This document shows positions 1-57,842 of a stretch of 57,842 bases of DNA, in pieces. The DNA is taken from IMG/VR virus record IMGVR_UViG_3300031857_000214, positions 1 through 57,842 of that record; one strand, 5' to 3'. The notes below the pieces were generated by a model. It was not told the origin of the DNA. It did no database searches and saw nothing but the letters and a program-made list of their open reading frames with translations. Every line of letters begins with the position of its first letter. The first letter of the stretch is position 1. This DNA comes from a virus. The position numbers and the translations under genes are program-made.

Positions 1-505
1 ATGATTGAGAAGCTCCAATATCGCCATCTAAACCAGCTTTTTGAGCTGATTCTTTTTCTAATATTAAACGCATTACATCTTTAACAAATTTATAGTCTTT
101 TTCTAGACCAGGGTTTATGGCCATTTTGCCTGTATTAGTATAAAATGCACTCATCGTGTAACAAGTGAATACAGGTAATTCTGTTTTGGTGTAAACGCTA
201 CCATTTACAGGGCTGCTTGATGTCAAAGCTAATGTAACGGTAAAGGCATAGTCTGCCCCTATATATGGTTGATTCTTATCATCAACTCCAGATATGACAA
301 GGTTATTTCCGCTGGCAAAAGGCCATACGAATTGATTGTATGTGGTATTACCTATTTTTAAATAAGTACCATCAGACTTTTGTATAGTAAGTTTTCTAGC
401 AGAGAAAGTACCAGCAGCTTCTATATTATAAGTAGAAGCATCTACTATTGTAAACTGACTACAGTCTGCGCCTTGCGTAAAACTTATCGCTGTTGTAAAA
501 GGCAT
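1..505 (-). CDS. N-terminal part of a fibre/tail structural protein, joined across the window ends
   Basis: A minus-strand frame starts with ATG at 503-505 (MPFTTAISFTQGADCSQF) and runs 168 codons without a stop to base 2. The remaining base 1 plus bases 57842 and 57841 form TCC (Ser), and the next codon is the ATG at 57838-57840 of the dockerin-bearing frame. The whole protein is therefore 731 residues if the sequence is circular. This N-terminal part is beta-rich with alternating polar and hydrophobic residues and resembles small virion adaptor domains. I infer attachment of the fibre-like remainder to the tail. A TATATTTG box lies upstream at 521-528. The preceding gene on the transcript is the 1930-residue protein; the following one is the lipoprotein at 55794-56150. 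Confidence 0.8.
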   Translation of the reverse strand, partial: MPFTTAISFTQGADCSQFTIVDASTYNIEAAGTFSARKLTIQKSDGTYLKIGNTTYNQFVWPFASGNNLVISGVDDKNQPYIGADYAFTVTLALTSSSPVNGSVYTKTELPVFTCYTMSAFYTNTGKMAINPGLEKDYKFVKDVMRLILEKESAQKAGLDGDIGASQS

Positions 506-520
506 ATTAAAACATTTATG

Positions 521-528
521 CAAATATA
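521..528 (-). promoter_or_regulatory. -7-like box TATATTTG
   Basis: The minus strand reads TATATTTG, matching the Bacteroidota -7 consensus TAnnTTTG, 15 nt before the start at 505. No clear TTTG lies 18-20 nt upstream, so this is a weak promoter call. Confidence 0.35.
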
Positions 529-8430: not shown

Positions 8431-11400
8431 TTATCTATTATTTAACGGTTGTAGTATTGATAAGTCAATATAGTACAAATCTACTAAGTTTTGCGGATTT
8501 ATTGGTGTCAAATTTAATTCTAACCAAGAACCTTTAAGCACATTGCCATTTAATAGCCCTCCGGGGCTCAACATGTCCCTTTTTAGGGCTGCATGATACT
8601 TATCATCCTTTATTCTAAAGTCCGCCTGAACGAGCTTAGATTGCTGTCCTAGATTTGTTTTTATATCCCCCTGAGTAGGTGAAACCCAAGTAGTATTACC
8701 TAGTGTAGTTAATGTATTATAGTGCTTCTTTATATTTTGTTGCTCATTGAATACAACTTTTATAGAAGGATTGTATTGAGTGCCATAAAAATTAGAATAT
8801 GAAGAGGTATTATTATGCGTCCACAATTCGCCATTTCTCCAAGTAATAATCAAATTACCAGCATTGCAAATCCACTCTGGATAGTAATCGTAAAAAGAAG
8901 TGTAGTGATTTTTTGGCTCATAGAAGCTAAATGTCATCTCTGTTATAGGATTACCAGAATCTGCACTTCCTTGCATACAGGTAGTAAATTGTTCTTCAAA
9001 AACGTCATAAACCCCCAATATCTTAGCATACCCACCATTGCCAAATTTATCAGCAACATTTTTTTGATACTTAGTAAATTTATCAGTAAAATAATAGTGA
9101 GCTTTAAATGTTTCAGTTAAAGAAGTAATACCGTCTGCAGACAATCTAATTTGAGCACCTATAATTGGGTCTGTGAAATAATCGGCTGATGCAGAAGAAG
9201 CTAGTGAACAATACTGATTTCCAATTCCATATTCTCCTTGATAATATTGAATTCTATTTAATACGCCTTCATTTTGAGATACAACATCTGTACCATCAGC
9301 AGTCTGCATTACATTTTGATAAATAGGAACCATTCCGCACCCCCTGCTTTGGAATACTCTTAATTGATTACCCCTTGTTACAAATCTTTGAATATCACCT
9401 CTTTGTCTATCGTAATCATCAATATTAGAAGTGTTGAATCTATTTGTATTATTTATATTCGTATTCTGTTGATATTCGCGAGAATATCTTATAGTGGAAG
9501 GAAAGTAAATTTCTTTAGCAAATGGGTCTACTACAAAAGCTCTTCCTCTATTTTTTACAGTTGAATCAAATTTATCAGAAACGGATTTGTCAATGATAAA
9601 CAATGGACTACCGTCAATTGGTTCTATTCTCTTTTTTTGATAATAATCCCCTCTAATAAAAGTAAATATAGCAGGTTGAACTATTGATGCACCTAATGCG
9701 CTGTCGGCTATATTATCTTGATATGTTGTAGCTGTGTTATTGGATATTGTTGTTAATAATTTATATGTATTACTACCGACTGCAGTTCTGTATATTTTTC
9801 TTGCAGTTGTCCCAGTAGGGCCTAATGGTATGTTTGATATATTAACTCTTCTTGAGCCGGATACTGTAGTTACAGACACGGCTTCGCCTGGATTTGAAGT
9901 TGCAGTTCCTTTTACAAAAGCTACTTTATAAGAATATGCACCTACACCTAAATTACCAGTTTGCGGCTCCAATGCAACAGTCATGTTAGTCGTAGGCGCT
10001 GCTATTGCACTTGTTGAACCAAATATTTGATTTTGAGAATGCCCTTCATGGATAAGATTATTATTTACATCTTTACCAACTTGGAATGTTTCTCCGAATT
10101 CATAATATAATTTGGTGTCTGAATTTTTATAATATTCTGGGGTATATATTTCTAGATAAAATGACTTAAATCCTGTATTTCCATAGTTAGTCATAAATGT
10201 AGAATTGTATGGAACTTTTATGAAATACTCATCAGTATCATCTACTTTTTTCCATGGCATAGTTATACCTCCTAATACCAAATCTATTACAGAGCAATCT
10301 TTTACAATACCAGAGCTTGTAGCTCCACCTTTAAGACCGATTATTCTAACTCTATCGCCCTTTGCAAATTGATATACTGGAAATTTACTTGTATTTTTTT
10401 GATATGCATTTATATTAAAATAAACATAACCTGCACCCTCTCCAGTACCTTTTATAGTATTGGAGCATACAATAGTAGTTAAATCAGATATTGTTAAATT
10501 ATCTGTCTTTACAAAGGAAAAATACTTTGCCCAACTTGGAGGCTGATGATTTACTGAAAATGTAATTTTTGGTATAAGTAAATGTTCTTCACCAAGGTTG
10601 TCGCTTATATTCGTTTCTGGAGTTATGATACTCATATTTTCATTTGTCATAACACCATTTGTCACTCCAAATTCATCAAAGTAACACAAACCAAATGAAT
10701 ATCTAGAATTATGTTTAAAAACAGCTGTACTAATATCTGTTATATTAAATGAGCTAAGAAATATTTCAAAACTCCCATTTATTGAAATAGCTTCATCAAT
10801 AGGATAAATCATTACAGAATTTGGCGGAACTTGATTATTAACGTCAGAATCCTTAATGCACCCAAAGTAGGAAGAGTTCATATCTTCATAAAAATAATCT
10901 ACAATACTAGATATAGTATCTCCAGACGTATAAGTATATACAAATTGAGCTTCATAAGGAGACCCGGTAATTCCCTGAGAATTTACATCTATTACAATTT
11001 TAACTAACCCATTTAAACCTCCGGAAAATGTAAATATTAAAGCAGGTCTTTTTTTATCTGAAGGGTTTCCTGTATCATATGAAGCTGGAGTTTTAGTCAT
11101 TGCTAGTGATAGCGCAGCAGTATTGTCTGCTGTAGATACACTTGAAGATAAGTCTAAAACCCTGTCAAATGTATTTCCTTCCTTAATACCACCATATGCA
11201 ATAATATTACCATTAATTAATTCTTGTGCATTTGCTGTTTTAGGACAATAATCAAATAATAAAGTGTCTCCTTCTACATCTACAAATTCATAAGCGTTAT
11301 TATTATAAAAACTATATGTATATATATTGTTACTAGGTATTGATAATTGATTTTTACTTATTGTAGCAATTAACATTGTATCTGTAAAAGCTTCTTCAAT

Positions 11401-12027
11401 TTGATGCCTTGCGCCTATCTCTATATGAGTACAATCTGCGCTTCCTGTATTTACTGATATGTCAATTCTATTGTTAATATTAGAAATTGAATCATCACTC
11501 AATGCATCTGCATTTGCAGGAGAAAACAATTTGCTCCATGGGCCCCAAGTAGATTTCGTATTGTCTTTATATACCCATCTATATTTAAATTGGTATAATT
11601 TATTTTTTAAGCTATTGATTGGAGTATTAATATCATCAACATACCTACATACAGGACTCATTAATGGCATTGGCCTAGCTACAGTTAAGTAACTTTTTTT
11701 CCAATCAGTTCCATATGTTTTGCCAGTGATAGTTGCATCTTTGATATTAAGCTTCATTGGCCTATTTAACCTATCTGTCCAATGCAATATATCTCCATCT
11801 TCTTCTGTTCTATATAATATATTTACAGAAGCAATTGGGTATTTTGGGTCGAAATTAAATAAGTCTTCTGAGCTATCTACGTATGAAATTAGTAATGGCG
11901 ATATTGCATTTGTAAGCACATCGTATACATAAATTCCATTATAACCAGAGGAATTATAATTGAAATAAAAAACTCTTTGTTTTAATTCATCGTAGTGGGA
12001 CCCTATACACTGATTAGTAGATGGCAT
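8431..12027 (-). CDS. Muzzle/nozzle-type tail protein, main part (1198 aa)
   Basis: The opening TNQCIGSHYDELKQRVFYFN with the following GIYVYDV is the repeat-rich beta-propeller style of the distal tail (muzzle) proteins of crAss-like and related Bacteroidota podophages, comparable in role to P22 gp10 and T7 gp12. Blocks such as RWVYKDNTKSTWGPWSKLFSP and RIDISVNTGSADCTHIEIGA recall that family as I remember it. Around residues 680-775 a fibronectin-like insert occurs (YKVAFVKGTATSNPGEAVSV). The ATG follows an A/T-only 26-nt spacer after the stop of the 62-aa frame at 12054-12242. Family members, as I recall them, begin with that 62-residue sequence, so this looks like a split gene. The protein would close the tail and carry host-contact proteins. 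Confidence 0.75.
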   Translation of the reverse strand: MPSTNQCIGSHYDELKQRVFYFNYNSSGYNGIYVYDVLTNAISPLLISYVDSSEDLFNFDPKYPIASVNILYRTEEDGDILHWTDRLNRPMKLNIKDATITGKTYGTDWKKSYLTVARPMPLMSPVCRYVDDINTPINSLKNKLYQFKYRWVYKDNTKSTWGPWSKLFSPANADALSDDSISNINNRIDISVNTGSADCTHIEIGARHQIEEAFTDTMLIATISKNQLSIPSNNIYTYSFYNNNAYEFVDVEGDTLLFDYCPKTANAQELINGNIIAYGGIKEGNTFDRVLDLSSSVSTADNTAALSLAMTKTPASYDTGNPSDKKRPALIFTFSGGLNGLVKIVIDVNSQGITGSPYEAQFVYTYTSGDTISSIVDYFYEDMNSSYFGCIKDSDVNNQVPPNSVMIYPIDEAISINGSFEIFLSSFNITDISTAVFKHNSRYSFGLCYFDEFGVTNGVMTNENMSIITPETNISDNLGEEHLLIPKITFSVNHQPPSWAKYFSFVKTDNLTISDLTTIVCSNTIKGTGEGAGYVYFNINAYQKNTSKFPVYQFAKGDRVRIIGLKGGATSSGIVKDCSVIDLVLGGITMPWKKVDDTDEYFIKVPYNSTFMTNYGNTGFKSFYLEIYTPEYYKNSDTKLYYEFGETFQVGKDVNNNLIHEGHSQNQIFGSTSAIAAPTTNMTVALEPQTGNLGVGAYSYKVAFVKGTATSNPGEAVSVTTVSGSRRVNISNIPLGPTGTTARKIYRTAVGSNTYKLLTTISNNTATTYQDNIADSALGASIVQPAIFTFIRGDYYQKKRIEPIDGSPLFIIDKSVSDKFDSTVKNRGRAFVVDPFAKEIYFPSTIRYSREYQQNTNINNTNRFNTSNIDDYDRQRGDIQRFVTRGNQLRVFQSRGCGMVPIYQNVMQTADGTDVVSQNEGVLNRIQYYQGEYGIGNQYCSLASSASADYFTDPIIGAQIRLSADGITSLTETFKAHYYFTDKFTKYQKNVADKFGNGGYAKILGVYDVFEEQFTTCMQGSADSGNPITEMTFSFYEPKNHYTSFYDYYPEWICNAGNLIITWRNGELWTHNNTSSYSNFYGTQYNPSIKVVFNEQQNIKKHYNTLTTLGNTTWVSPTQGDIKTNLGQQSKLVQADFRIKDDKYHAALKRDMLSPGGLLNGNVLKGSWLELNLTPINPQNLVDLYYIDLSILQPLNNR

Positions 12028-12053
12028 TTATTTATTATTATATTTTATTATAA

Positions 12054-12242
12054 TTATCTTATGTCTGTTTTAAGATTAGCGTTAGTAACCTTTTTATTAC
12101 CTCTTATTGATTGGAATTTATTCATACCTTGATTACCTCTAAAAACTCCATTTTTAGCTTCCTTATGGTGTCCATTTGGAATTATATCGTTTGAATCATC
12201 AAGATTCATTGCTCCAGTAAATAATTTAGTATTTAATTTCAT
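12054..12242 (-). CDS. N-terminal fragment of the muzzle-type tail protein (62 aa)
   Basis: I chose the start MKLNTKLFTGAMNLDDSN (ATG 12240-12242), 1 nt after the upstream stop, rather than the ATG six codons earlier. The content (MNLDDSNDIIPNGHHKEAKN, then FRGNQGMNKFQSIRGN) resembles the extreme N-terminus of crAss-like muzzle proteins, whose next residues normally continue into the CIGSHYDELKQRV-type sequence that here opens the next gene. The frame stops at TAA (12054-12056), followed by 26 A/T-only bases and the 1198-aa frame in a different phase. It may act as a separate peptide that docks on the main part, or be joined to it by a recoding event. A simple single-base error does not explain the spacer. 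Confidence 0.6.
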   Translation of the reverse strand: MKLNTKLFTGAMNLDDSNDIIPNGHHKEAKNGVFRGNQGMNKFQSIRGNKKVTNANLKTDIR

Positions 12243-12243
12243 A

Positions 12244-13014
12244 TTATATCTTAGCAACAAGTTTTTGACCCATTCTTATAATTTCATTAGCATCCCATAG
12301 CATAACAGGATTTTCTCTAAGGTTAGCCAATCTTTTTTGATTGTAATATTCCTTCCTTCTCAATTGCTTGTCACCTAGGCTTGCTCTTCTTCCAAGTGGC
12401 AAATGTTCTATATCTTTCCATGCTATAAAAGCTAATACAGCCTCTCTTATTTGAACAGGTACTTTATAATCAACGTCATCTGATGGGGAAGAAAGATACT
12501 CTAAAATAACATAATCAAAATCATAATCGTTTTGAAGGAAGATTAATCCATCCTCTTCAGAGATATTAAAATCACCTGCATTGTTTAAAACAGCACCAGC
12601 TCCAAATATGTTTACATATCTAGCTCCGTCAAAATAGTTTACATAAGCCAAATCTTGGAGTCTGTATGTATTACCTGTTGTATTGTCGGTATTGCTATCT
12701 GTTCTATCTGATTGGTTGATTTTATATGAAGTTAAAGCCACATTTCTTCTAAGAGTAGCGACTTCTCCTTTTGCATTTAAAACACCAACTTTTGAAAAAC
12801 CAACATAGTCTGATGGTAGATTAACTGTTTTATTAGCGTTTACTGCTAATTTAGCTGTCTTAGGAAATGAATATACATCCATCCCAAGTTCTTCAACTCC
12901 TCTTATTCCTGCAGTCCATAGTCTTCTATAGTCAGAATTAGACAAGCGAGCTTGGTCTATATACTGATAGATTATTTCTGAAAGAGGAACCCATTTTGCT
13001 GTATCTTTTGCCAT
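12244..13014 (-). CDS. Ring/adaptor head-to-tail protein (256 aa)
   Basis: The N-terminal helices (MAKDTAKWVPLSEIIYQYID, then RLWTAGIRGVEELGMDVYSF) and the central beta region (VNLPSDYVGFSKVGVLNAKG) match the pattern of tail-tubular-A or ring proteins of podophages and crAss-like phages. These form a dodecameric ring below the portal and receive the nozzle. The C-terminus is helical (FIAWKDIEHLPLGRRASLGD). It lies between two further connector-type genes and the muzzle gene, in the order portal, capsid, ring proteins, muzzle. I am fairly sure of the structural role and less sure which ring position it takes. Confidence 0.65.
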   Translation of the reverse strand: MAKDTAKWVPLSEIIYQYIDQARLSNSDYRRLWTAGIRGVEELGMDVYSFPKTAKLAVNANKTVNLPSDYVGFSKVGVLNAKGEVATLRRNVALTSYKINQSDRTDSNTDNTTGNTYRLQDLAYVNYFDGARYVNIFGAGAVLNNAGDFNISEEDGLIFLQNDYDFDYVILEYLSSPSDDVDYKVPVQIREAVLAFIAWKDIEHLPLGRRASLGDKQLRRKEYYNQKRLANLRENPVMLWDANEIIRMGQKLVAKI

Positions 13015-13019
13015 ATTTA

Positions 13020-13643
13020 TTATGCTTTATCTACACCATCATTAACTGAATCTTCAGGTGTTCCTTTTCTAATTTTAAGTTTATTTAGAATCAAATCTAT
13101 AATATCTGATATATATTCCTGTGGGACATTCAATTCGGAATCCATATCTGAATTCTCCGAGCTAACCATTCTCACTATGGCAAATTTGCCTACTAGATTT
13201 GTATAGCTTTTAAACCATAGCTTTTTCCCCTCTGCCCAATAAAATATTTTGCTTGGAGGTTGCTTTAAGTTATCCATATATTCCAACTCTCTAACAGAGA
13301 TTGGTATTGGAGATTTTGCTAATCCGGTAGAAGTAGGAAATGTTACGGTAGATATACCATACCCTCTAGATAATCCAAGGGGTACTTGAGGTAAATCTAA
13401 TGAATAATATCCAGTATCGTTATCTTTTGTGATTGCCAAGTTTTTAAATGTAGCATAAAACGAATCTGCAACAGACTCAATACCATCTAGCTTTATAGCA
13501 TCGGTATAGTTTATTTTAGCTATATAAGCAATGGCTTCACTTATATACGTATTTACTTCTTTCTCAGAAAGAGTAGCATCGTCATTAGGAACACCACCGT
13601 AGTAAATTCTCCTAATTTGTTCTATTAATACTTTTCTAGTCAT
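13020..13643 (-). CDS. Head-to-tail connector / ring protein (207 aa)
   Basis: The protein begins MTRKVLIEQIRRIYYGGVPN and continues with a helix carrying EKEVNTYISEAIAYIAKINY, a pattern I associate with connector proteins of crAss-like and other Bacteroidota podophages. A beta-rich middle (YSLDLPQVPLGLSRGYGIST) is followed by a helical C-terminus. Its ATG overlaps the last base of the upstream gene, which suggests translational coupling. The role is inferred from position between capsid and muzzle genes. Confidence 0.6.
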   Translation of the reverse strand: MTRKVLIEQIRRIYYGGVPNDDATLSEKEVNTYISEAIAYIAKINYTDAIKLDGIESVADSFYATFKNLAITKDNDTGYYSLDLPQVPLGLSRGYGISTVTFPTSTGLAKSPIPISVRELEYMDNLKQPPSKIFYWAEGKKLWFKSYTNLVGKFAIVRMVSSENSDMDSELNVPQEYISDIIDLILNKLKIRKGTPEDSVNDGVDKA

Positions 13644-14356
13644 TATTGACCGTCATTTTTAACTGTTTGAGATACGCGTATTAAATCGCCATCTTTTAAA
13701 TTGATTCCTATAATACCAAGTGTTCTATATATAATATCCATGTGGTCGTTTTCTGGCCATTCTAATTGAACACTACCTGTTGATGGTATCAATGTCTTGC
13801 CGGAAGGAACAGTGCCCCCAGTTGGAACATAAACTGCATTTCCAGAATCATCAACATAATAAGCCCAAACCGCATCTGCAGGTTTTTTAAAATATACAAT
13901 TTTAGCAGTAGCTAATGTAGATGGCCAAAATTTAAAATTTGACCCAATTTCTGTATATATTGGGTCGGAAGCAGTAGGAGCGTCAATTGGATTATTTACA
14001 TATGCATATATCTTATCAGCACCAACTCTTCTAACAGGGTAATCATTATCTGTTGTCCTCATTGCAGATATTTTATAAAAATCTGTAGGTTGAGGCGAAA
14101 GTTGACTTGTTATGGTTAAGTCAGATTCTTTTAAAAAATTTGATAATGAACCGCCGGTAGTTACATCATTTGAAAATCCACCTGCAGCAGTTCTTCTAAC
14201 TCCTTGATTAAACTCGGCTGTTTCGCCAGTCAAGAAGTTTAAATATTGTCTCTGAGCAGCATTAACGGCTAGATTAAAATCATCTGGAGATAAGTACGTT
14301 CCCTGAAACTTATCAACCATATATGCTACAGTTTTGTATATTTCGTTAATATTCAT
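13643..14356 (-). CDS. Head completion / connector protein (237 aa)
   Basis: The start is taken at ATG 14354-14356 (MNINEIYKTVAYMVDKFQGT). An upstream in-frame ATG at 14425 would run through an intrinsic terminator and is rejected. The helical N-terminus with AVNAAQRQYLNFLTGETAEF and the beta segment FKFWPSTLATAKIVYFKKPA are typical of Bacteroidota-phage connector proteins that couple portal and ring. It is preceded by a terminator (14372-14397) and a TATATTTG box (14361-14368), so its expression may be partly independent of the capsid gene. It is followed with a 1-nt overlap by the next ring protein. Confidence 0.6.
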   Translation of the reverse strand: MNINEIYKTVAYMVDKFQGTYLSPDDFNLAVNAAQRQYLNFLTGETAEFNQGVRRTAAGGFSNDVTTGGSLSNFLKESDLTITSQLSPQPTDFYKISAMRTTDNDYPVRRVGADKIYAYVNNPIDAPTASDPIYTEIGSNFKFWPSTLATAKIVYFKKPADAVWAYYVDDSGNAVYVPTGGTVPSGKTLIPSTGSVQLEWPENDHMDIIYRTLGIIGINLKDGDLIRVSQTVKNDGQ

Positions 14357-51137: not shown

Positions 51138-51222
51138 TTACACAAATATTTTTAATAATATCCAAAGATACACTTGTTACTGCAATGTTGCCTGGCTGTG
51201 AAGGGTCTTTACTCTGTTTCAT
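51130..51222 (-). CDS. Possible small peptide (30 aa) filling the gap
   Basis: MKQSKDPSQPGNIAVTSVSL and ICVNA fill exactly the gap between two genes, overlapping both ends by 14 and 8 nt. No hydrophobic stretch and no family recognised. Confidence 0.4.
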   Translation of the reverse strand: MKQSKDPSQPGNIAVTSVSLDIIKNICVNA

Positions 51223-51454
51223 TGTATAGCTTTTTAACTTCTTTAGGATATTTTTCCGTTAACTCATCTATGATAAATTCATTTCTTCCGATAGTAATGT
51301 CTTTGATATTACATTCTGCCTGAAGGCTGTCAATTAAAACAGAATTATCATTAATTTTCTTAGACAATCTACTGTTTTCAATATTGGCAGTTGCAACCAA
51401 TACAGCCATAAGAATAATAAATACCGAAAATAAAACAAATACTGTGCGTGTCAT
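51209..51454 (-). CDS. Membrane-anchored coiled coil, inner-spanin-like (81 aa)
   Basis: An N-terminal transmembrane helix (VFVLFSVFIILMAVLVATA) is followed by a periplasmic coil (ENSRLSKKINDNSVLIDSLQ). This layout, directly after the endolysin gene with a 1-nt overlap, is that of an inner spanin (Rz-like). An outer partner could be the lipoprotein at 55794-56150. Confidence 0.55.
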   Translation of the reverse strand: MTRTVFVLFSVFIILMAVLVATANIENSRLSKKINDNSVLIDSLQAECNIKDITIGRNEFIIDELTEKYPKEVKKLYNETE

Positions 51455-52050
51455 TAGATTAAAAGTTTATAATATTCATTAAAATGTTTTATTCTATCAG
51501 GCAAGCCTATGGTTCCTCCATTTACTCTCTTTGTAATCTTAGTAACAACTTCATTTGTAGCACCTTGGTCTGCAATGGCGTTTAGTCCATTCTTAGACCA
51601 AAACCAAGCGGCAGATAGAAGTGGATACTTTGTAGCTACTAAATCAGGATTCGCTTCAATATTATCTTCAACTGTTTTATCAAAAGCTAGGTAATTTGTT
51701 TTACCTGTTAGTTGAATGTAACCTCTCCCACGGAATTTATACCCCTCTCCGGAAGCCTGATTTCCATTACCCATACGATTTGCGTATACAATATTAGCAA
51801 TCTTTTCTGGTTTTCTTTGATATTCTGCAGCACTTTCTGGTGTAAAATATTTTTTAAATATTCCACATAGACCTTTTGCGCTATAATTTAAGTTCTCAGT
51901 TGTTACCCTAAAGCCACCGCTTTCGTGTCCTGTTTGAGCTAAAAAATGAGCTAAACGAGTAGGGGTATTTACGCCAAACTTTTCAGATACCTCTGGGATT
52001 TGTGCGATAACGGAATCAGGTACGTGACCTTTAAGTGCTTCTAATTTCAT
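51454..52050 (-). CDS. GH19 endolysin (198 aa)
   Basis: The family signature is clear: FLAQTGHESGGF with catalytic Glu43, TENLNYS with Glu52, GEGYKFRGRGYIQLTGKTNY and AAWFWSKNGLN. GH19 enzymes cleave peptidoglycan or chitin; phage members are lysozymes. There is no signal peptide, so export depends on the holin encoded 1 nt upstream. Confidence 0.9.
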   Translation of the reverse strand: MKLEALKGHVPDSVIAQIPEVSEKFGVNTPTRLAHFLAQTGHESGGFRVTTENLNYSAKGLCGIFKKYFTPESAAEYQRKPEKIANIVYANRMGNGNQASGEGYKFRGRGYIQLTGKTNYLAFDKTVEDNIEANPDLVATKYPLLSAAWFWSKNGLNAIADQGATNEVVTKITKRVNGGTIGLPDRIKHFNEYYKLLI

Positions 52051-52295
52051 TATTTATCTTTTATATTTTTGTTACCAAATATAGCTTCTACACCTGTAAT
52101 ACCGCACATAGTCAAGGCTGTATACATAAGGCCGTTGAATACGATAGGTTCAATTACAAATGGAACGCCAAAAATACCTGTTACAATATCAGCTAAGGCA
52201 TACAATACCATTAACACAAATGCAACTAATCCTAATACAGCTTTTTGATTGATGTCAGACTTGTCGCTGAACATTCTTAATAAGAAATCTTTCAT
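52050..52295 (-). CDS. Holin candidate (81 aa)
   Basis: Two transmembrane segments (AVLGLVAFVLMVLYALADIV and IVFNGLMYTALTMCGITGV) with a basic-charged N-terminus. It overlaps the endolysin start by 1 nt, the typical holin-endolysin arrangement. Confidence 0.65.
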   Translation of the reverse strand: MKDFLLRMFSDKSDINQKAVLGLVAFVLMVLYALADIVTGIFGVPFVIEPIVFNGLMYTALTMCGITGVEAIFGNKNIKDK

Positions 52296-52301
52296 ATTAT
52301 A

Positions 52302-52904
52302 TTATTTAATTTTCCAATATATAGATGCGTTGATAAATGGAGTTTTATTAATATCAACACCTGCACCAATATTATACAATTTATCACACTTAGTATTAAT
52401 CAATAAGTTTACTCCTACGTTATTGATGTAATTCACTCTGTCAAATCCCATTCCTACACCCCAAAATATTTTAGTCTTAGGTAATTCTTTGACTATAGTC
52501 GTCTCCTTTATAGTTCTTTGCTTAACATTTGCCGTAAACTTCCTTGCCTCAATGGTATTCTTGCTGATTGTATCAAGCATTACTACGTAACCTAAGCTGT
52601 CAGGTAAATGAAGCGTATCCTTGTAAACATTCTTGGCAAAGTAATTTTTAATAATTTCCAATGTGTCTACATTTACAGGGATATGTACGTATATTGTCGT
52701 ATCGTGGTAAATGTCCTTACCTTGTTTTGTAACTATTTTAGTCTTTATGATATCAATGGTGTCAACCTCGTGCTTGATAACCTCGTAAGGCTTCCCATTG
52801 ACATATTTGATTTCAGGAGCAAATGGGTTGTGGAATCCGTTCAAGAAGAAGCTCAAGACTAATGCCCCAACTATCATCAATGCTATAAATTTTACTATTT
52901 TCAT
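52302..52904 (-). CDS. Envelope-spanning protein with outer-membrane-like end (200 aa)
   Basis: An uncleaved N-terminal helix (IVKFIALMIVGALVLSFFL) anchors it in the inner membrane. Residues 30-140 are soluble and Ile/Thr/Lys-rich. The last 55 residues are amphipathic beta strands (KIFWGVGMGFDRVNYINNVG, then FINASIYWKIK) like the end of outer-membrane barrels. One protein reaching both membranes would resemble a unimolecular spanin. No family recognised. A TAAATTTG box lies at 52909-52916. Confidence 0.55.
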   Translation of the reverse strand: MKIVKFIALMIVGALVLSFFLNGFHNPFAPEIKYVNGKPYEVIKHEVDTIDIIKTKIVTKQGKDIYHDTTIYVHIPVNVDTLEIIKNYFAKNVYKDTLHLPDSLGYVVMLDTISKNTIEARKFTANVKQRTIKETTIVKELPKTKIFWGVGMGFDRVNYINNVGVNLLINTKCDKLYNIGAGVDINKTPFINASIYWKIK

Positions 52905-52913
52905 ATGGCAAAT

Positions 52914-54083
52914 TTACAAATTAAATTTAGTACCGACTAACAGCGCTATTGTATGGACAGGACCCATATATTTGACGTTTAATGCCATTTTAAAGCGTTT
53001 TGAGAGGGCTATGTCGAAAGATGAGCCGAATATATAACTTAATTGGCTTACGGCCGTTAAATCGCCTGATTTTGAGGTATAAGACAAAGGACTTGACATT
53101 ATGAATATTTCAGGCGTAATACCCAGTCTTTTGCTGTATGTGATAGGTTTCATTCCAAATAGCACAATAGAAGATGTCCAAAACTGCTGTTTAGTAGCCT
53201 CAAACGGTATTGACGTGTTAATTAGGCTCAATGCGTATCCGTATACATATGATTTATTCATCATAACATATGAATATCCGCCTATATGAATTAGGCTCCC
53301 TTCATTGTAAGCCATAGTATATGAATACGTGCCAACTCCACAAAGTTTGTTATCCTGAATATCCATCTTAGAATATCTGCTAGATAGCGCAAATTGCCTT
53401 AAATTTGAGAAGATTGTTAAGGTAGAACCATAAGACACATCACCGGCCATTGAGGCTCTAGAAACGCCCATATTGGCCATTAAATTATAATCACCTTGAA
53501 GTTGCTTAACATTACTCAAATCAGAAGAAAATATGAGAGGTGTCTGTCCAGCCTTTGCAGAAGCTTTTTTCTTCTCTTCTTTCTTGCTCTCTTTCTTATC
53601 CTCTTTTTTGCTATCGGATTTGCTTTCGGACTTGCTCTCACTATTGTCGCCACCGCTACTTGCCTCCGACTTGCTTTCAGGAGCGCTAGAGCTTTCCTGA
53701 GAAGATGGCGCAGAAGATGGTACGCTAACAGAACTAGCCGCACTTGCTGCAACAGAGCTAGCGGAACTACTAACCGCAGCTGATACTGAATTAGAAACAG
53801 TCTGCTGAGTTATCTGTTGAGTCAGTTGATTTACAGGACAAGGAGCAGAATACTCCGCATATACTTGATTTATCCATGTTGTAAATGTGCCATTCTGAAC
53901 ATCTGCAGAGGTAAAGAACTTAGCCTTGCCCATAAAAACAATCGTAGTTCCTTGCAATGGCACTATGAATACTGTTACTTTCTTAGTACAAGGGTCTACG
54001 AAAGTGTTCGTAATCACTTGAGCATTCACGTTTACGTGAAATACTAATAAAAGTGAACAGAGTAAGCTAGTTTTTAAATACAT
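52914..54083 (-). CDS. Secreted outer-membrane barrel-like protein with Ser-rich linker (389 aa)
   Basis: I take the start MYLKTSLLCSLLLVFHVNVN (ATG at 54081-54083), which gives a signal peptide cleaved after NAQ; an ATG 13 codons earlier is less likely. A folded N-terminal domain (residues 22-85) is followed by a Ser/Ala/Lys-rich linker (about 90-180) and a beta-strand domain that ends GTKFNL like outer-membrane barrels. The start overlaps the CsgG-like gene by 17 nt. Role unknown; the linkage suggests a partner or cap of the CsgG-like pore. Confidence 0.6.
   Translation of the reverse strand: MYLKTSLLCSLLLVFHVNVNAQVITNTFVDPCTKKVTVFIVPLQGTTIVFMGKAKFFTSADVQNGTFTTWINQVYAEYSAPCPVNQLTQQITQQTVSNSVSAAVSSSASSVAASAASSVSVPSSAPSSQESSSAPESKSEASSGGDNSESKSESKSDSKKEDKKESKKEEKKKASAKAGQTPLIFSSDLSNVKQLQGDYNLMANMGVSRASMAGDVSYGSTLTIFSNLRQFALSSRYSKMDIQDNKLCGVGTYSYTMAYNEGSLIHIGGYSYVMMNKSYVYGYALSLINTSIPFEATKQQFWTSSIVLFGMKPITYSKRLGITPEIFIMSSPLSYTSKSGDLTAVSQLSYIFGSSFDIALSKRFKMALNVKYMGPVHTIALLVGTKFNL
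53997..54012. promoter_or_regulatory. Palindrome TACGAA-N4-TTCGTA inside the barrel-like gene
   Basis: A perfect 6+6 inverted repeat of the same family as the sites at 30195 and 48873. Confidence 0.35.
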
Positions 54084-54780
54084 TCTTTTTAACCATTCTA
54101 GATAGGATGCGAGCACACGCAATGTCTAGTGCTTTCTTTGTCGCTGTTCCTATGGTTGATTGGTTAAATTTAACTTCGCTTAAGTTAGCGTCTGTTAAAA
54201 GGCTTGCTTCACGTGTTGTCTTTGCTTCCCCTAAACCTGAAGCTGCTATAATCTCGCCTGTCTCGGCATTTGTAAATCTTACTTGTAATCCTATTCTAGT
54301 CACCACCGTTTCCTTTATGCCATCTTTTACTCTAATCTCTTCATCCTCCGAAACAGAATAATCGTAGCATTCAATCTCAACAAAGTAATGAGCTAGTCTA
54401 ATCTTTCCTCTTCCGTCCAACTTATCCTGAGAAATTCCTGCTTGGCTTGCTTGGAACTGTTTAACCATTCTATTCTTGATTTCAGTCTTATCTTCTGTAA
54501 AGGTGAAACGATTAAGATTTTCAAGATATTCAAGGGTGATGTTTGCGACTCCGAGTCCAACTCTTTTTTCTTTGAGCTCAGGATATTGTTCATACATTTC
54601 ATCTGATATGCCACATTTTAGTATTTGTATAGGTATAGTCGGTCCATCATAATCCATGTACTGACTTATATCAATCTTTGTTTCAAAACTCGCTTTATAG
54701 TTCTCTGTTTTTGTTGTAGCTACCTGCGCATTTGCACAAATAGCTACTAACATACATAAAGCGGTTATGTAAAGTCTCAT
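54067..54780 (-). CDS. CsgG-like outer-membrane secretion-pore protein (237 aa)
   Basis: A signal peptide (MRLYITALCMLVAICANAQ) is followed by a domain matching the CsgG/HfaB layout: VGLGVANITLEYLENLNRFT, KTEIKNRMVKQFQASQAG, AHYFVEIECYDYSVSED, then TRIGLQVRFTNAETGEIIAA and TATKKALDIACARIL. In E. coli CsgG forms a nonameric pore for curli subunits. The expected lipobox is absent (VAIC is not a good one), so it may be a soluble or differently anchored form. The neighbours are late envelope and lysis genes, so a role in outer-membrane opening or export of a phage protein is inferred. Confidence 0.7.
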   Translation of the reverse strand: MRLYITALCMLVAICANAQVATTKTENYKASFETKIDISQYMDYDGPTIPIQILKCGISDEMYEQYPELKEKRVGLGVANITLEYLENLNRFTFTEDKTEIKNRMVKQFQASQAGISQDKLDGRGKIRLAHYFVEIECYDYSVSEDEEIRVKDGIKETVVTRIGLQVRFTNAETGEIIAASGLGEAKTTREASLLTDANLSEVKFNQSTIGTATKKALDIACARILSRMVKKNVFKN

Positions 54781-55377
54781 TTATTTATTCTTTAAAAGTC
54801 CACAGTTTTGACACTCAAGCTCTCCGTCTCCGTCAGAATCACCCCACACGTGTTCACATTGTCTGTGTGCGTGGAATTCAAATTCTAATTTCTCCATCTC
54901 TTGCTCATGCTCTTGTTGGTCAACCTCCATTACTTGTCTATGCTCTTGTTCATCTTTAGCAAGCTCAAACTTTTGTTTATTCTCAGTAACAGCTAAATCT
55001 CTAGCCGCTTCTGCTCCTTTAACAAAAGCGTCAGGGATTATAGGACTAAATGGTCTGTTAGTTTCTTTCATATCGTTGGTATGAGACAGAGTAACACCAT
55101 CTTCTTCATCCATTTTTTGCACTAACATCTTGTCCTTGTCTGTATCGCTGAACCAATAGTCAATAATCTTGCCATAGCTACCAATAAAAGCACCTAGCAT
55201 TAAAAACAATAGTTCTTTCCACTCTGCGGATGCAGCCACATTATTGGATATTGCTGTAAATATCCCTACTATAATTAAAATAAATCCACCAAGAACGCCT
55301 GCGGTAATAAACCACCTGCGAGTCATCATTTGATTTAAAAGGTCTTTAAAGCCTGAAGGTTGTTTAGTGTTGTCCAT
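54781..55377 (-). CDS. Membrane protein with coiled coil and zinc-ribbon end (198 aa)
   Basis: Two transmembrane helices lie at about 22-45 and 53-70 (FITAGVLGGFILIIVGIFTA, LLFLMLGAFIGSYGKII). A charged coil follows (EHRQVMEVDQQEHEQEMEKL), then a possible metal site: HAHRQCEHVW and LECQNCGLL. The two-helix part resembles small phage membrane proteins near holins. It starts inside the 47-aa gene (43-nt overlap). Confidence 0.6.
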   Translation of the reverse strand: MDNTKQPSGFKDLLNQMMTRRWFITAGVLGGFILIIVGIFTAISNNVAASAEWKELLFLMLGAFIGSYGKIIDYWFSDTDKDKMLVQKMDEEDGVTLSHTNDMKETNRPFSPIIPDAFVKGAEAARDLAVTENKQKFELAKDEQEHRQVMEVDQQEHEQEMEKLEFEFHAHRQCEHVWGDSDGDGELECQNCGLLKNK

Positions 55378-55478
55378 ATGTTATATATTATTTCTTTGTT
55401 TTGTTTTATTAATAACGCTTTTTTTCGTCCTGAACGAATACTGCGCATTGGTCTTTTTTTAGGTGATGCGTTTGCCAT
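55335..55478 (-). CDS. Small basic protein overlapping its neighbour (47 aa)
   Basis: MANASPKKRPMRSIRSGRKK...NNLQALKTF starts 1 nt after the previous stop (TAATATG) and overlaps the next gene by 43 nt in another frame. The basic N-terminus suggests nucleic-acid or membrane binding. No family recognised. Confidence 0.5.
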   Translation of the reverse strand: MANASPKKRPMRSIRSGRKKALLIKQNKEIIYNIWTTLNNLQALKTF

Positions 55479-55479
55479 A

Positions 55480-55788
55480 TTACCACTGTGCTGGTTTTTC
55501 CTTAAACTCATCAGCTTCCTTTTTAGGCTTTGGTGCTGGCGTAGGTTTAGCCTGCTCTGTAGGCTTCTCTTTAATAATAACCGTTTTACCTCCACCTGCA
55601 GATTGTTGCTGTGTTTGAGTGTTTTGAATGTTAATTATAGGTTGAGCGGTTTGCTGTGGCTTATCATCGTTTCCACCACCAAACAAAGTTGAAGCTAACC
55701 ATGCACCACCTGCAGTTACAACTGTAGCTATAGTACCTAATATTGTTTTTTTTAAACTACCGCCTGTGCTTTCTTGTTCTTCTGACAT
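55480..55788 (-). CDS. Single-pass membrane protein with Gln/Pro-rich tail (102 aa)
   Basis: A transmembrane helix (ILGTIATVVTAGGAWLAST) is followed by a disordered Gln/Pro/Lys tail (NTQTQQQSAGGGKTVIIKEK). A periplasmic, flexible tail is likely. No family recognised. Confidence 0.6.
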   Translation of the reverse strand: MSEEQESTGGSLKKTILGTIATVVTAGGAWLASTLFGGGNDDKPQQTAQPIINIQNTQTQQQSAGGGKTVIIKEKPTEQAKPTPAPKPKKEADEFKEKPAQW

Positions 55789-55793
55789 ATATT

Positions 55794-56150
55794 TTATTTT
55801 ATAATTATTGGATACTTAACCTCGTTACCACTTATATCAATAAAGATAATATCGTAATTCCTTTTCGGTAAGTCTGACAAATTTAACACCTTTTTCGTTA
55901 AGGTGTCATTAGCCGTAAAACCCTCTTTTTTGACAGGTTCTGTCTTGCCGAATGGTATTACTTGAATTGAGTACTTAGCCCCTGCAGTAGTCTTAAAATC
56001 GGCCGTAACAATGTTACCAGACTGAATAATAGATTTGATAGAAGTTCCTGCTGATTTAACGCCCAAATCAATAGTCTGTGGCTGTGGCATATCAACCTTT
56101 GTGCAGCCGAATAAAAGCAAACCAAACGCATAGATTGTGTATTTTTTCAT
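55794..56150 (-). CDS. Lipoprotein (118 aa)
   Basis: The signal YAFGLLLFGC is a lipobox (LFGC) with lipidated Cys16. The mature part is a single beta domain (GAKYSIQVIPFGKTEPVKKE). It is 1 nt after the fibre-like gene. Candidate roles are superinfection exclusion or outer spanin; neither is shown. Confidence 0.7.
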   Translation of the reverse strand: MKKYTIYAFGLLLFGCTKVDMPQPQTIDLGVKSAGTSIKSIIQSGNIVTADFKTTAGAKYSIQVIPFGKTEPVKKEGFTANDTLTKKVLNLSDLPKRNYDIIFIDISGNEVKYPIIIK

Positions 56151-56151
56151 A

Positions 56152-57842
56152 TTAGAAGTTATTATAGCCTGTTAATTTTATTTGTGTAGAATTTAAGTTT
56201 ATACCTAATTGATTGCCATTTATATCACTCGCGTCCATAACTGTAGACACCTTAACCGATGTTGCAACATCAATACCTGCACCTATTGTTGAGAATTTTA
56301 GCTTAAATGGAGTGCTAACACCTGTTATTGAGCCTTGCTTGTTTTGGTCTAATGCTCCAAATTTAACCACCCCTTCTTTCGTGTTTGCAAATATGTACCA
56401 ACCGCTAGGAACAAATGTGGCTAAATCTTCAAATTTAACCAATGAAGGATTGTAACTGAATTCTAGTTGCAAGCCAGTAACCTGATTCCCCTTGGCATCA
56501 ACTGAAACAGGTATCTCAAAATTATTTGATGTTACTGTTACGTTAGGTATATTAACATCAATAGAAGTGTAAGCGATAAGCGTGTTTAAGTAAGGCCCAT
56601 TAGTAGCATTGGCCATTTTGGTTGACGTTTCATTAAACAAGATGTTTGTTTGTAGGCTAGGTATCGCATTAGTTTTTATGGTAGATACCCCATTTGAGCT
56701 TGTTACAACTTGAGATGAATGAGAGCGGTTTACGTCTCCCCATAATAAATACTTTAAGTTTAGTGAAGCATTTGTTCCTAGCACGCCTGTTTTAAAATAA
56801 GTGCGAGGCATTGTGATTGTTTTCCAATTAGACTTTGTTATAGCTCCCCAAGCATTGCTAGGAGATACAACAAAATCAAATTCAGCTTGTAATGCGTAAT
56901 CAGGGCCCCCATTCATATTTCTTATGTTAGCTATATATGTAGAAGTGCCATCTATTGCTTTTGATAATGTAGAAGGAACTTTATATACTGCCCAGCCACC
57001 AACATTACTTTCGTACTCAATAGGTCCTGTATATATATCAAACAGCTGTATACTGCTTAATTCATTTGGGTTTATGCCAGATGTAAATTCGCGCATATCA
57101 ATATACAGCTTACTCATAGAGGAGGCATTTGGTGTTACATAAGCCCATTCTACTTGACCGGCTGTTGTATTGATTTCGGCAGCGTTCCATGTAGGCATAC
57201 TCATATATCCACCTGTACCTGTTGTATAGGCAGCAGGAAGCTTAAACAATGTGTCCAATCCAACTACCTGAGCTAACAATCTAGGTAAATCTCCAGCATC
57301 TATTTGTTGGTTTCTATTAATATCTCCTGCAAAATAAGACTGACCTGTATTCAGTATGTTTCCTAAATCGCCGTTTGTACCTAATCCGTTTTGGGTAAAT
57401 TCTTTTTGAATATTTGTAAAATCTGATATTGTTATTGCACTATTGTATATGGCATACATTTTATCCATTTCGTACATTACCGAAACATCATATACCCTAT
57501 TTGGAGATAACAAATTTTGATTAATGTCAACATCCCCATTTGATGTTACGTTAAATAACTGACCTGTATTTGAGACTGTATCCCTAAATGAAACTTTTAA
57601 GTTTGTAATATTAAGCAAGTTTGTATTTGCATCTACTTTAGCTGTTACATATTTCCCAAAGTTTTGGTTCATATTAACGCTTGTAGATAAAGGTGATTCC
57701 ATAATTGTAGCGTCTTGTACCCCCTGACTATTCCATCCTGCTACAAAATTTAACTTAATAGGATTAAATGTGTATGCGGTAGAAGTAGGCTTGAGTTTAA
57801 ACTTGACAACTATCATCCTATCGTATGCGTTATATGGCATGG
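56152..57842 (-). CDS. Fibre-like protein with dockerin and cohesin-like domains, C-terminal part
   Basis: This is the remainder of the protein that starts at 505. The frame is open through base 57842, and the ATG at 57840 is internal. Residues about 340-363 of the joined protein read AGDINRNQQIDAGDLPRLLA, a type I dockerin calcium loop. A second weaker one begins WGDVNRSHSSQ. The last 120 residues (NNFEIPVSVDAKGNQVTGLQ, then FSYNPSLVKFED and GVSTPFKLKFSTIGAG) resemble a cohesin domain. Cohesin and dockerin normally bind each other in cellulosomes; both in one phage tail protein is unusual and may allow self-assembly or host polysaccharide attachment. The order of tail genes supports a virion location. 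Confidence 0.7.
   Translation of the reverse strand, partial: MPYNAYDRMIVVKFKLKPTSTAYTFNPIKLNFVAGWNSQGVQDATIMESPLSTSVNMNQNFGKYVTAKVDANTNLLNITNLKVSFRDTVSNTGQLFNVTSNGDVDINQNLLSPNRVYDVSVMYEMDKMYAIYNSAITISDFTNIQKEFTQNGLGTNGDLGNILNTGQSYFAGDINRNQQIDAGDLPRLLAQVVGLDTLFKLPAAYTTGTGGYMSMPTWNAAEINTTAGQVEWAYVTPNASSMSKLYIDMREFTSGINPNELSSIQLFDIYTGPIEYESNVGGWAVYKVPSTLSKAIDGTSTYIANIRNMNGGPDYALQAEFDFVVSPSNAWGAITKSNWKTITMPRTYFKTGVLGTNASLNLKYLLWGDVNRSHSSQVVTSSNGVSTIKTNAIPSLQTNILFNETSTKMANATNGPYLNTLIAYTSIDVNIPNVTVTSNNFEIPVSVDAKGNQVTGLQLEFSYNPSLVKFEDLATFVPSGWYIFANTKEGVVKFGALDQNKQGSITGVSTPFKLKFSTIGAGIDVATSVKVSTVMDASDINGNQLGINLNSTQIKLTGYNNF

Follow-up and report, generated by a model that had tools for sequence, protein, structure and literature searches.

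Gene organisation at the locus

The viral contig IMGVR_UViG_3300031857_000214 of IMG/VR (57,842 nt; its whole length is referred to here as the window) carries at its right end a group of open reading frames (ORFs) for envelope proteins, among them a secreted protein with the predicted fold of the curli secretion protein CsgG, a secreted barrel protein and a cohesin-type surface protein. All ORFs of this module lie on the minus strand, as do terminase and portal, head genes of the 57.8-kb contig. A first-pass annotation, made from the nucleotide sequence, had delimited a late envelope module at 52302-56150; all the ORFs that it named are present, including the lipoprotein (56150-55794), and the module extends past 56150 into the cohesin protein at 56152-57840. 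In their order along the module, the genes are:

56152..57840, minus strand: cohesin-type surface protein; truncated at its 5' end by the window edge
55794..56150, minus strand: lipoprotein, 118 amino acids, small beta domain, lipobox 'LLFGC'
55480..55788, minus strand: tm102, 102 amino acids, with one transmembrane (TM) helix, a Pro/Gln/Lys-rich arm and a conserved C-terminal Trp (from the ORF and its relatives)
54781..55377, minus strand: hol198, two TM helices and a cytoplasmic tail, which has a CxxC-type motif close to the C-terminus; resembles a holin in topology only
54067..54780, minus strand: CsgG-fold secreted protein, 237 amino acids (predicted structure; signal peptide '...ANAQ')
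52914..54083, minus strand: secreted 12-stranded barrel protein (predicted structure; relatives)
52302..52904, minus strand: span200, 200 amino acids, with a TM helix at the N-terminus and strands at the C-terminus; may be a spanin-like tether, outside the conserved core
52050..52295, minus strand: hol81, small two-TM holin-like protein (topology only)
51454..52050, minus strand: GH19-type endolysin (PF00182, E 1.4e-9; phrog_181, E 5.7e-69)
51209..51454, minus strand: rz81, N-terminal TM helix and coiled-coil-like periplasmic part, i-spanin-like (phrog_739 Rz-like spanin, E 0.097 only)

The barrel gene overlaps the CsgG-like gene by 17 nt, as first noticed, if it starts at ATG 54083; a TTG at 54122 opens a longer frame. 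Both are real genes under purifying selection, because synonymous changes far exceed replacements: the rate of replacement (dN) is 0.07-0.10 against a synonymous rate (dS) of 1.2-2.0 for the CsgG-like gene, and 0.16-0.38 against 1.1-2.2 for the barrel gene. These ratios, together with relatives of the CsgG-like protein encoded on 526 IMG/VR stretches, rule out a chance or non-coding origin. No significant Pfam or PHROG match was obtained for hol198, and HMMER matches of E 0.01-1 that link small module proteins to unrelated families were taken as chance. An ORF at the other edge of the window (2-523) had no match among the fetched relative loci.

Distribution of the module

We collected 160 loci from two scans, being the best of the 526 and 113 stretches that matched, and counted gene neighbours in the 115 loci with full flanks out of 162 sequences; the unit counted is the contig, and since many contigs are closely related, the events are not independent. 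The barrel gene is present in 115/115, the cohesin gene in 108/115, a lipoprotein or sorting-domain protein in 104/115, tm102 in 102/115 and a second, smaller CsgG-fold gene in 97/115. The genes of lysis type are more variable neighbours: hol198 occurs in 69/115, hol81 in 68/115, and an endolysin within eight genes in 53/115, a count in which other endolysin families can be missed, as the partner families were grown from the window proteins. The constant partners rule out scattering of the module genes in relatives, and the envelope module recognised in the first reading is conserved. The protein with an inner-membrane helix and strands that had been included in it (span200, 52302-52904) is encoded as described and is separable from the module: it occurs in 17/115 loci and also on contigs that lack a CsgG-like gene in the part fetched, which rules it out as a core part.

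The module is virus-specific. A survey of 84,980 bacterial and archaeal genomes yielded matches on just two contigs; both carry phage genes and come from metagenome-assembled genomes (MAGs), which speaks against a host-derived operon. The module-bearing Bacteroidota MAG contigs of this genome collection, L164 and L165, look like phage contigs binned with bacteria. The only named isolates with a relative are strains of Flavobacterium phage immuto, in which the protein (gp017, 52% identical) is annotated as hypothetical.

The CsgG-like protein

Searches of the CsgG-like protein against Pfam, PHROG, NCBIfam and PDB sequences returned no match, and PF03783 was matched neither in the window record nor by hmmscan up to E 1. 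Because the sequence libraries gave nothing, the assignment of a CsgG fold rests on structure prediction. The AlphaFold2 model, built from a 55-sequence alignment of related contigs, has a mean predicted local distance difference test (pLDDT) score of 77 and a predicted template modelling (pTM) score of 0.70. CsgG structures fill the top 19 Foldseek places for this model (E 8e-7 to 2e-5, probability 1.00), led by 6l7c/6l7a/4uv3 (E 8e-7 to 2e-6; 7.7e-7 for the first), and CsgG is also the top match by VIA-align (4uv2_O; Z 12.2, root-mean-square deviation (rmsd) 3.0 over 150 residues), followed by PelC (Z 9.2), LptE (Z 9.2) and TraT decamers (Z 7.2 and 6.6). Compared with viral structures, the model matched one protein named CsgG, from an uncultured phage, and nothing else clearly. 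The CsgG-like character of this 237-residue protein, claimed in the first-pass annotation from the letters, is thus confirmed at the level of the predicted fold.

The same annotation noted that CsgG proteins form outer-membrane pores; for the CsgG-like protein itself this is not supported. The hairpin-1 region has 23 residues, of which on average 7.3 are charged; the corresponding figures for E. coli CsgG are 30 and 5. The tip of this hairpin is acidic (S-[VI]-[SG]-[ED]-D-E) and is conserved throughout the family. The hairpin-2 region is likewise shorter (31 residues compared with 39), and the model shows no return strand, although this is a monomer model with a low-confidence loop (residues 197-204 below pLDDT 50). 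The two long amphipathic membrane hairpins per protomer that mark CsgG were therefore not found in the family sequences or in the monomer model, and pore formation by the CsgG-like protein itself is weakly indicated at best. Given hairpin segments that are 7-8 residues shorter and carry conserved acidic residues, the protein is better explained as a periplasmic ring next to the barrel, on the pattern of PelBC, than as a pore.

These observations bear on the possibility that the module is a true type VIII (curli-like) system, in which the hairpins of the CsgG-like protein would form an outer-membrane pore that exports an amyloid-like phage product. The fold match speaks for it, as does a profile comparison in which the core strands and a TGE motif of CsgG and the family are in register, though the hhalign score is weak (probability 20.6%, E 1e-3) and the gap between the family and true CsgG falls in the first membrane hairpin. 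The altered hairpins speak against it. By reading, the window protein (MRLYITALCMLVAICANAQ) has no lipobox, while the distant relatives L147 and L155 show a lipobox-like Cys; and a Pfam scan of the module proteins, taken as far as E 1, showed no curli profile (CsgA, CsgB, CsgE or CsgF). We consider a type VIII pore very improbable.

The barrel protein

Modelling predicts that the protein encoded downstream is a 12-stranded outer-membrane-type barrel (pLDDT 73, pTM 0.58; 66 sequences). The signal peptide is followed by a small N-domain of alpha/beta type, in which two Cys are nearly invariant, a helix at residues 85-116, a disordered Ser/Lys linker and the barrel, whose twelve long strands span residues 183-389 by DSSP of the model; the N-terminal part comprises only ~60 folded residues plus the linker. 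Both the secreted barrel and the Ser/Lys linker proposed from the sequence were recovered in this model. Foldseek places FapF first (E 1.5e-6; top matches 5o65/5o67/5o68), and VIA-align places NalP, an autotransporter channel, first (Z 22.5, rmsd 2.7 over 226 residues).

Surface proteins, small CsgG-fold protein and tm102

Close relatives of the truncated window cohesin protein are full-length, with 546-710 amino acids and a signal peptide, and one of them (L008:4233-6308) contains a Cohesin domain (PF00963, 2.2e-7). In the immuto group, all distinct cohesin proteins (52/52) carry a type A type IX sorting domain (TIGR04183), two of them also by Pfam. The window lipoprotein weakly resembles this sorting domain of the immuto group (hhalign probability 95%, E 4e-8).

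The smaller CsgG-fold protein surfaced via an iterative family profile and is a homologue of the large protein (hhalign 99.9%); in some phages a TM helix at its N-terminus anchors it in the inner membrane. Examples of its gene are L005:4495-4992, L008:3748-4236, L001:9221-9676 and L021:2107-2748. The gene precedes the cohesin gene in close relatives, and in the window would lie beyond 57842. We propose that tm102 is an inner-membrane tether, with a topology suggested by the positive-inside rule. A C-terminal W, mostly after an acidic stretch, ends 96 of 100 distinct tm102 relatives and is likely to be a docking motif.

Could these proteins be virion components, such as tail fibres or decorations? 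In the close relative L015 the module follows a 1503-residue tail-fibre-like gene. Sec-type signal peptides are nonetheless present on the CsgG-like protein, on the barrel protein and on those full-length cohesin proteins of relatives that were read, and the immuto annotation calls none of the module proteins structural; a virion role is the most remote of the explanations considered here.

A possible takeover of the host surface

Starting from the predicted folds, the export signals and the constant association of the genes, we propose that the module is a virus-specific outer-envelope module that builds a channel-and-ring complex in the host outer membrane and places cohesin-type proteins on the surface; we put the probability of this reading at roughly 40%. 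The barrel would act as a gated channel, since in its nearest solved structures (FapF and the autotransporter translocators) the pore contains a helix; the CsgG-fold proteins would form a periplasmic ring or collar under it, as PelC does under PelB; and tm102 would link the complex to the inner membrane via its terminal tryptophan. Such a complex could export or anchor proteins of cohesin/dockerin-like type, and in the immuto group might do so jointly with the host type IX secretion system. The likely benefit would be a late remodelling of the host surface, leading to superinfection exclusion or cell-cell adhesion. Late expression is probable, as in the window's group the module adjoins the lysis genes; its position before holin and endolysin there may reflect this shared late timing. 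A narrower version of the proposal, namely an apparatus found only in viruses of Bacteroidota, in which a CsgG-fold ring, a FapF/autotransporter-like gated barrel and a Trp-ended tether export adhesins in cooperation with type IX secretion, is tentative and, taken as a whole, somewhat doubtful.

The first-pass annotation had suggested opening of the outer membrane at lysis or export of a phage product, and the former competes with surface display: the barrel, the CsgG-fold protein and the tethers (tm102, span200 and rz81) would stand in for a spanin or add to one, making the outer membrane permeable once holin and endolysin have done their work. The gene order in the window's group (CsgG-like, barrel, span200, holin, endolysin, Rz-like) suits this role, holin-like genes immediately precede the CsgG-like gene in many other phages, and rz81 is not overlapped by any o-spanin lipoprotein. 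A recognisable spanin is lacking in 91 of 677 surveyed phages (PMC6139136), and a role in lysis has already been proposed for the CsgG of phage Melnitz (PMC9004378). We nevertheless prefer surface display, because it is surface proteins and not lysis genes that accompany the pair constantly, and because the immuto module (11.6-16.4 kb, beside ribonucleotide reductase genes) is remote from the annotated lysozyme, which lies at 146 kb; the latter distance is suggestive only, because that lysozyme may be a baseplate enzyme. Moreover, a plugged 12-stranded barrel would be too narrow for virion release and could cause depolarisation or leakage at most. A part in lysis is thus less likely than surface display, although it may hold for the window's group.

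Superinfection exclusion alone, without the wider remodelling, would have the CsgG-fold ring act in the manner of TraT, a surface-exclusion lipoprotein, and block adsorption or DNA entry of competing phages, with receptors masked by the cohesin proteins. The structural matches do include TraT decamers, but they score well below CsgG and PelC. Several phages have enzymes for surface glycans and lipids in the cluster: genes within or beside the module encode a glycosyltransferase and a calcineurin-like phosphoesterase in L031 (8716-10227), a PfkB sugar-kinase and a cytidylyltransferase, heptose-pathway-like, in L079 (9182-10332), a class 3 lipase in L058 (8709-9446) and, as a surface-binding protein, a C-type lectin in immuto. 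These neighbours suit the surface-display model as well. Exclusion genes are mostly early or lysogenic, and a neighbourhood of lysis genes is atypical for them. A link to superinfection has also been suggested for the type IX cargo of Cryophage (PMC7468147). On balance, exclusion as the sole function appears improbable.

Several observations weigh against the surface-display model. In the window's group the module stands directly before the holin, endolysin and Rz-like genes, and holin-like genes lie within the cluster in ~60% of the full-flank loci; both suit lysis. The likeness of the barrel to FapF is one of fold only (~8% identity), and other 12-stranded barrels equal or beat FapF by VIA-align. 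Lastly, the sorting domain of TIGR04183/NCBIfam was found neither in the window lipoprotein nor in the L008 cohesin protein.

Comparison with known secretion systems

The window protein shares the monomer fold of E. coli CsgG (curli, type VIII; Z ~12), is likewise exported to the envelope and has alignable core strands. It differs in the absence of a Pfam match, a lipobox and curli partners, in its shortened and acidic hairpins, and in having a separate barrel partner. The statement in the first-pass annotation that no phage system of this kind had been described was too strong: phage-encoded CsgG and CsgF have been described in pelagimyophages (PMC7029224) and in the methylophage Melnitz, where a role in lysis timing was proposed (PMC9004378), and further type VIII genes are present in pelagiphages (PMC9599517). 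Pelagibacter phage HTVC008M and Methylophilales phage Melnitz resemble the phages studied here in being tailed and in encoding a CsgG-fold protein in a cluster with hypothetical partners. Their proteins, however, are true CsgG, 37-40% identical to that of E. coli, encoded near ssDNA-binding-protein genes in proteobacterial phages, whereas the window family is missed by the search that finds them and clusters instead with barrel and cohesin proteins.

FapF, the amyloid secretion channel of Pseudomonas, is a plugged, 12-stranded barrel that has a coiled coil in the periplasm and a disordered linker, and was likened by its authors to autotransporters (PMC5557850). The barrel protein shares with it the strand number, an N-terminal periplasmic part and the disordered linker; it differs in that its N-domain is small and alpha/beta with two nearly invariant cysteines, in its low identity, and in the absence of fap partners by Pfam scan. 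In the export of exopolysaccharide by PelBC, PelC, a ring subunit with a CsgG-like fold, works with the separate barrel PelB (PMC12141448), a division of labour similar to the one that we propose, and PelC matches the CsgG-like protein in fold; the PelB barrel is larger (16 strands), however, and the window module lacks polysaccharide synthesis genes. Proteins with type IX sorting domains are encoded by the Bacteroidota phage Cryophage (PMC7468147), but the cargo there, hydrolases and a PA14 protein, is encoded in variable islands, whereas the cohesin genes here belong to a conserved cluster that also encodes envelope proteins.

We found no description of this gene cluster in the open-access literature searched, which leaves out most subscription papers, and a takeover of the cell surface of this kind in Bacteroidota viruses seems to be undescribed. 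A conserved envelope gene set is thus carried on hundreds of phage contigs, the only isolated representatives of which infect Flavobacterium, with the genes annotated as hypothetical. If the proteins are displayed on the surface, lytic phages would actively rebuild the surfaces of their hosts late in infection; if they open the outer membrane, the module would bear on how lysis is completed in phages without recognisable spanins. With immuto and its culturable host, both ideas are testable now.

Two further observations concern genes near or related to the module. In L058, a TonB-dependent receptor with Plug and barrel domains (10666-13149) is followed by a lipoprotein of 398 amino acids (13146-14342), and both lie between the CsgG-like and barrel genes. 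Relatives of span200 are encoded on L185-L193, where the fetched sequence shows no CsgG-like gene, and are candidate single-protein spanins of Bacteroidota phages.

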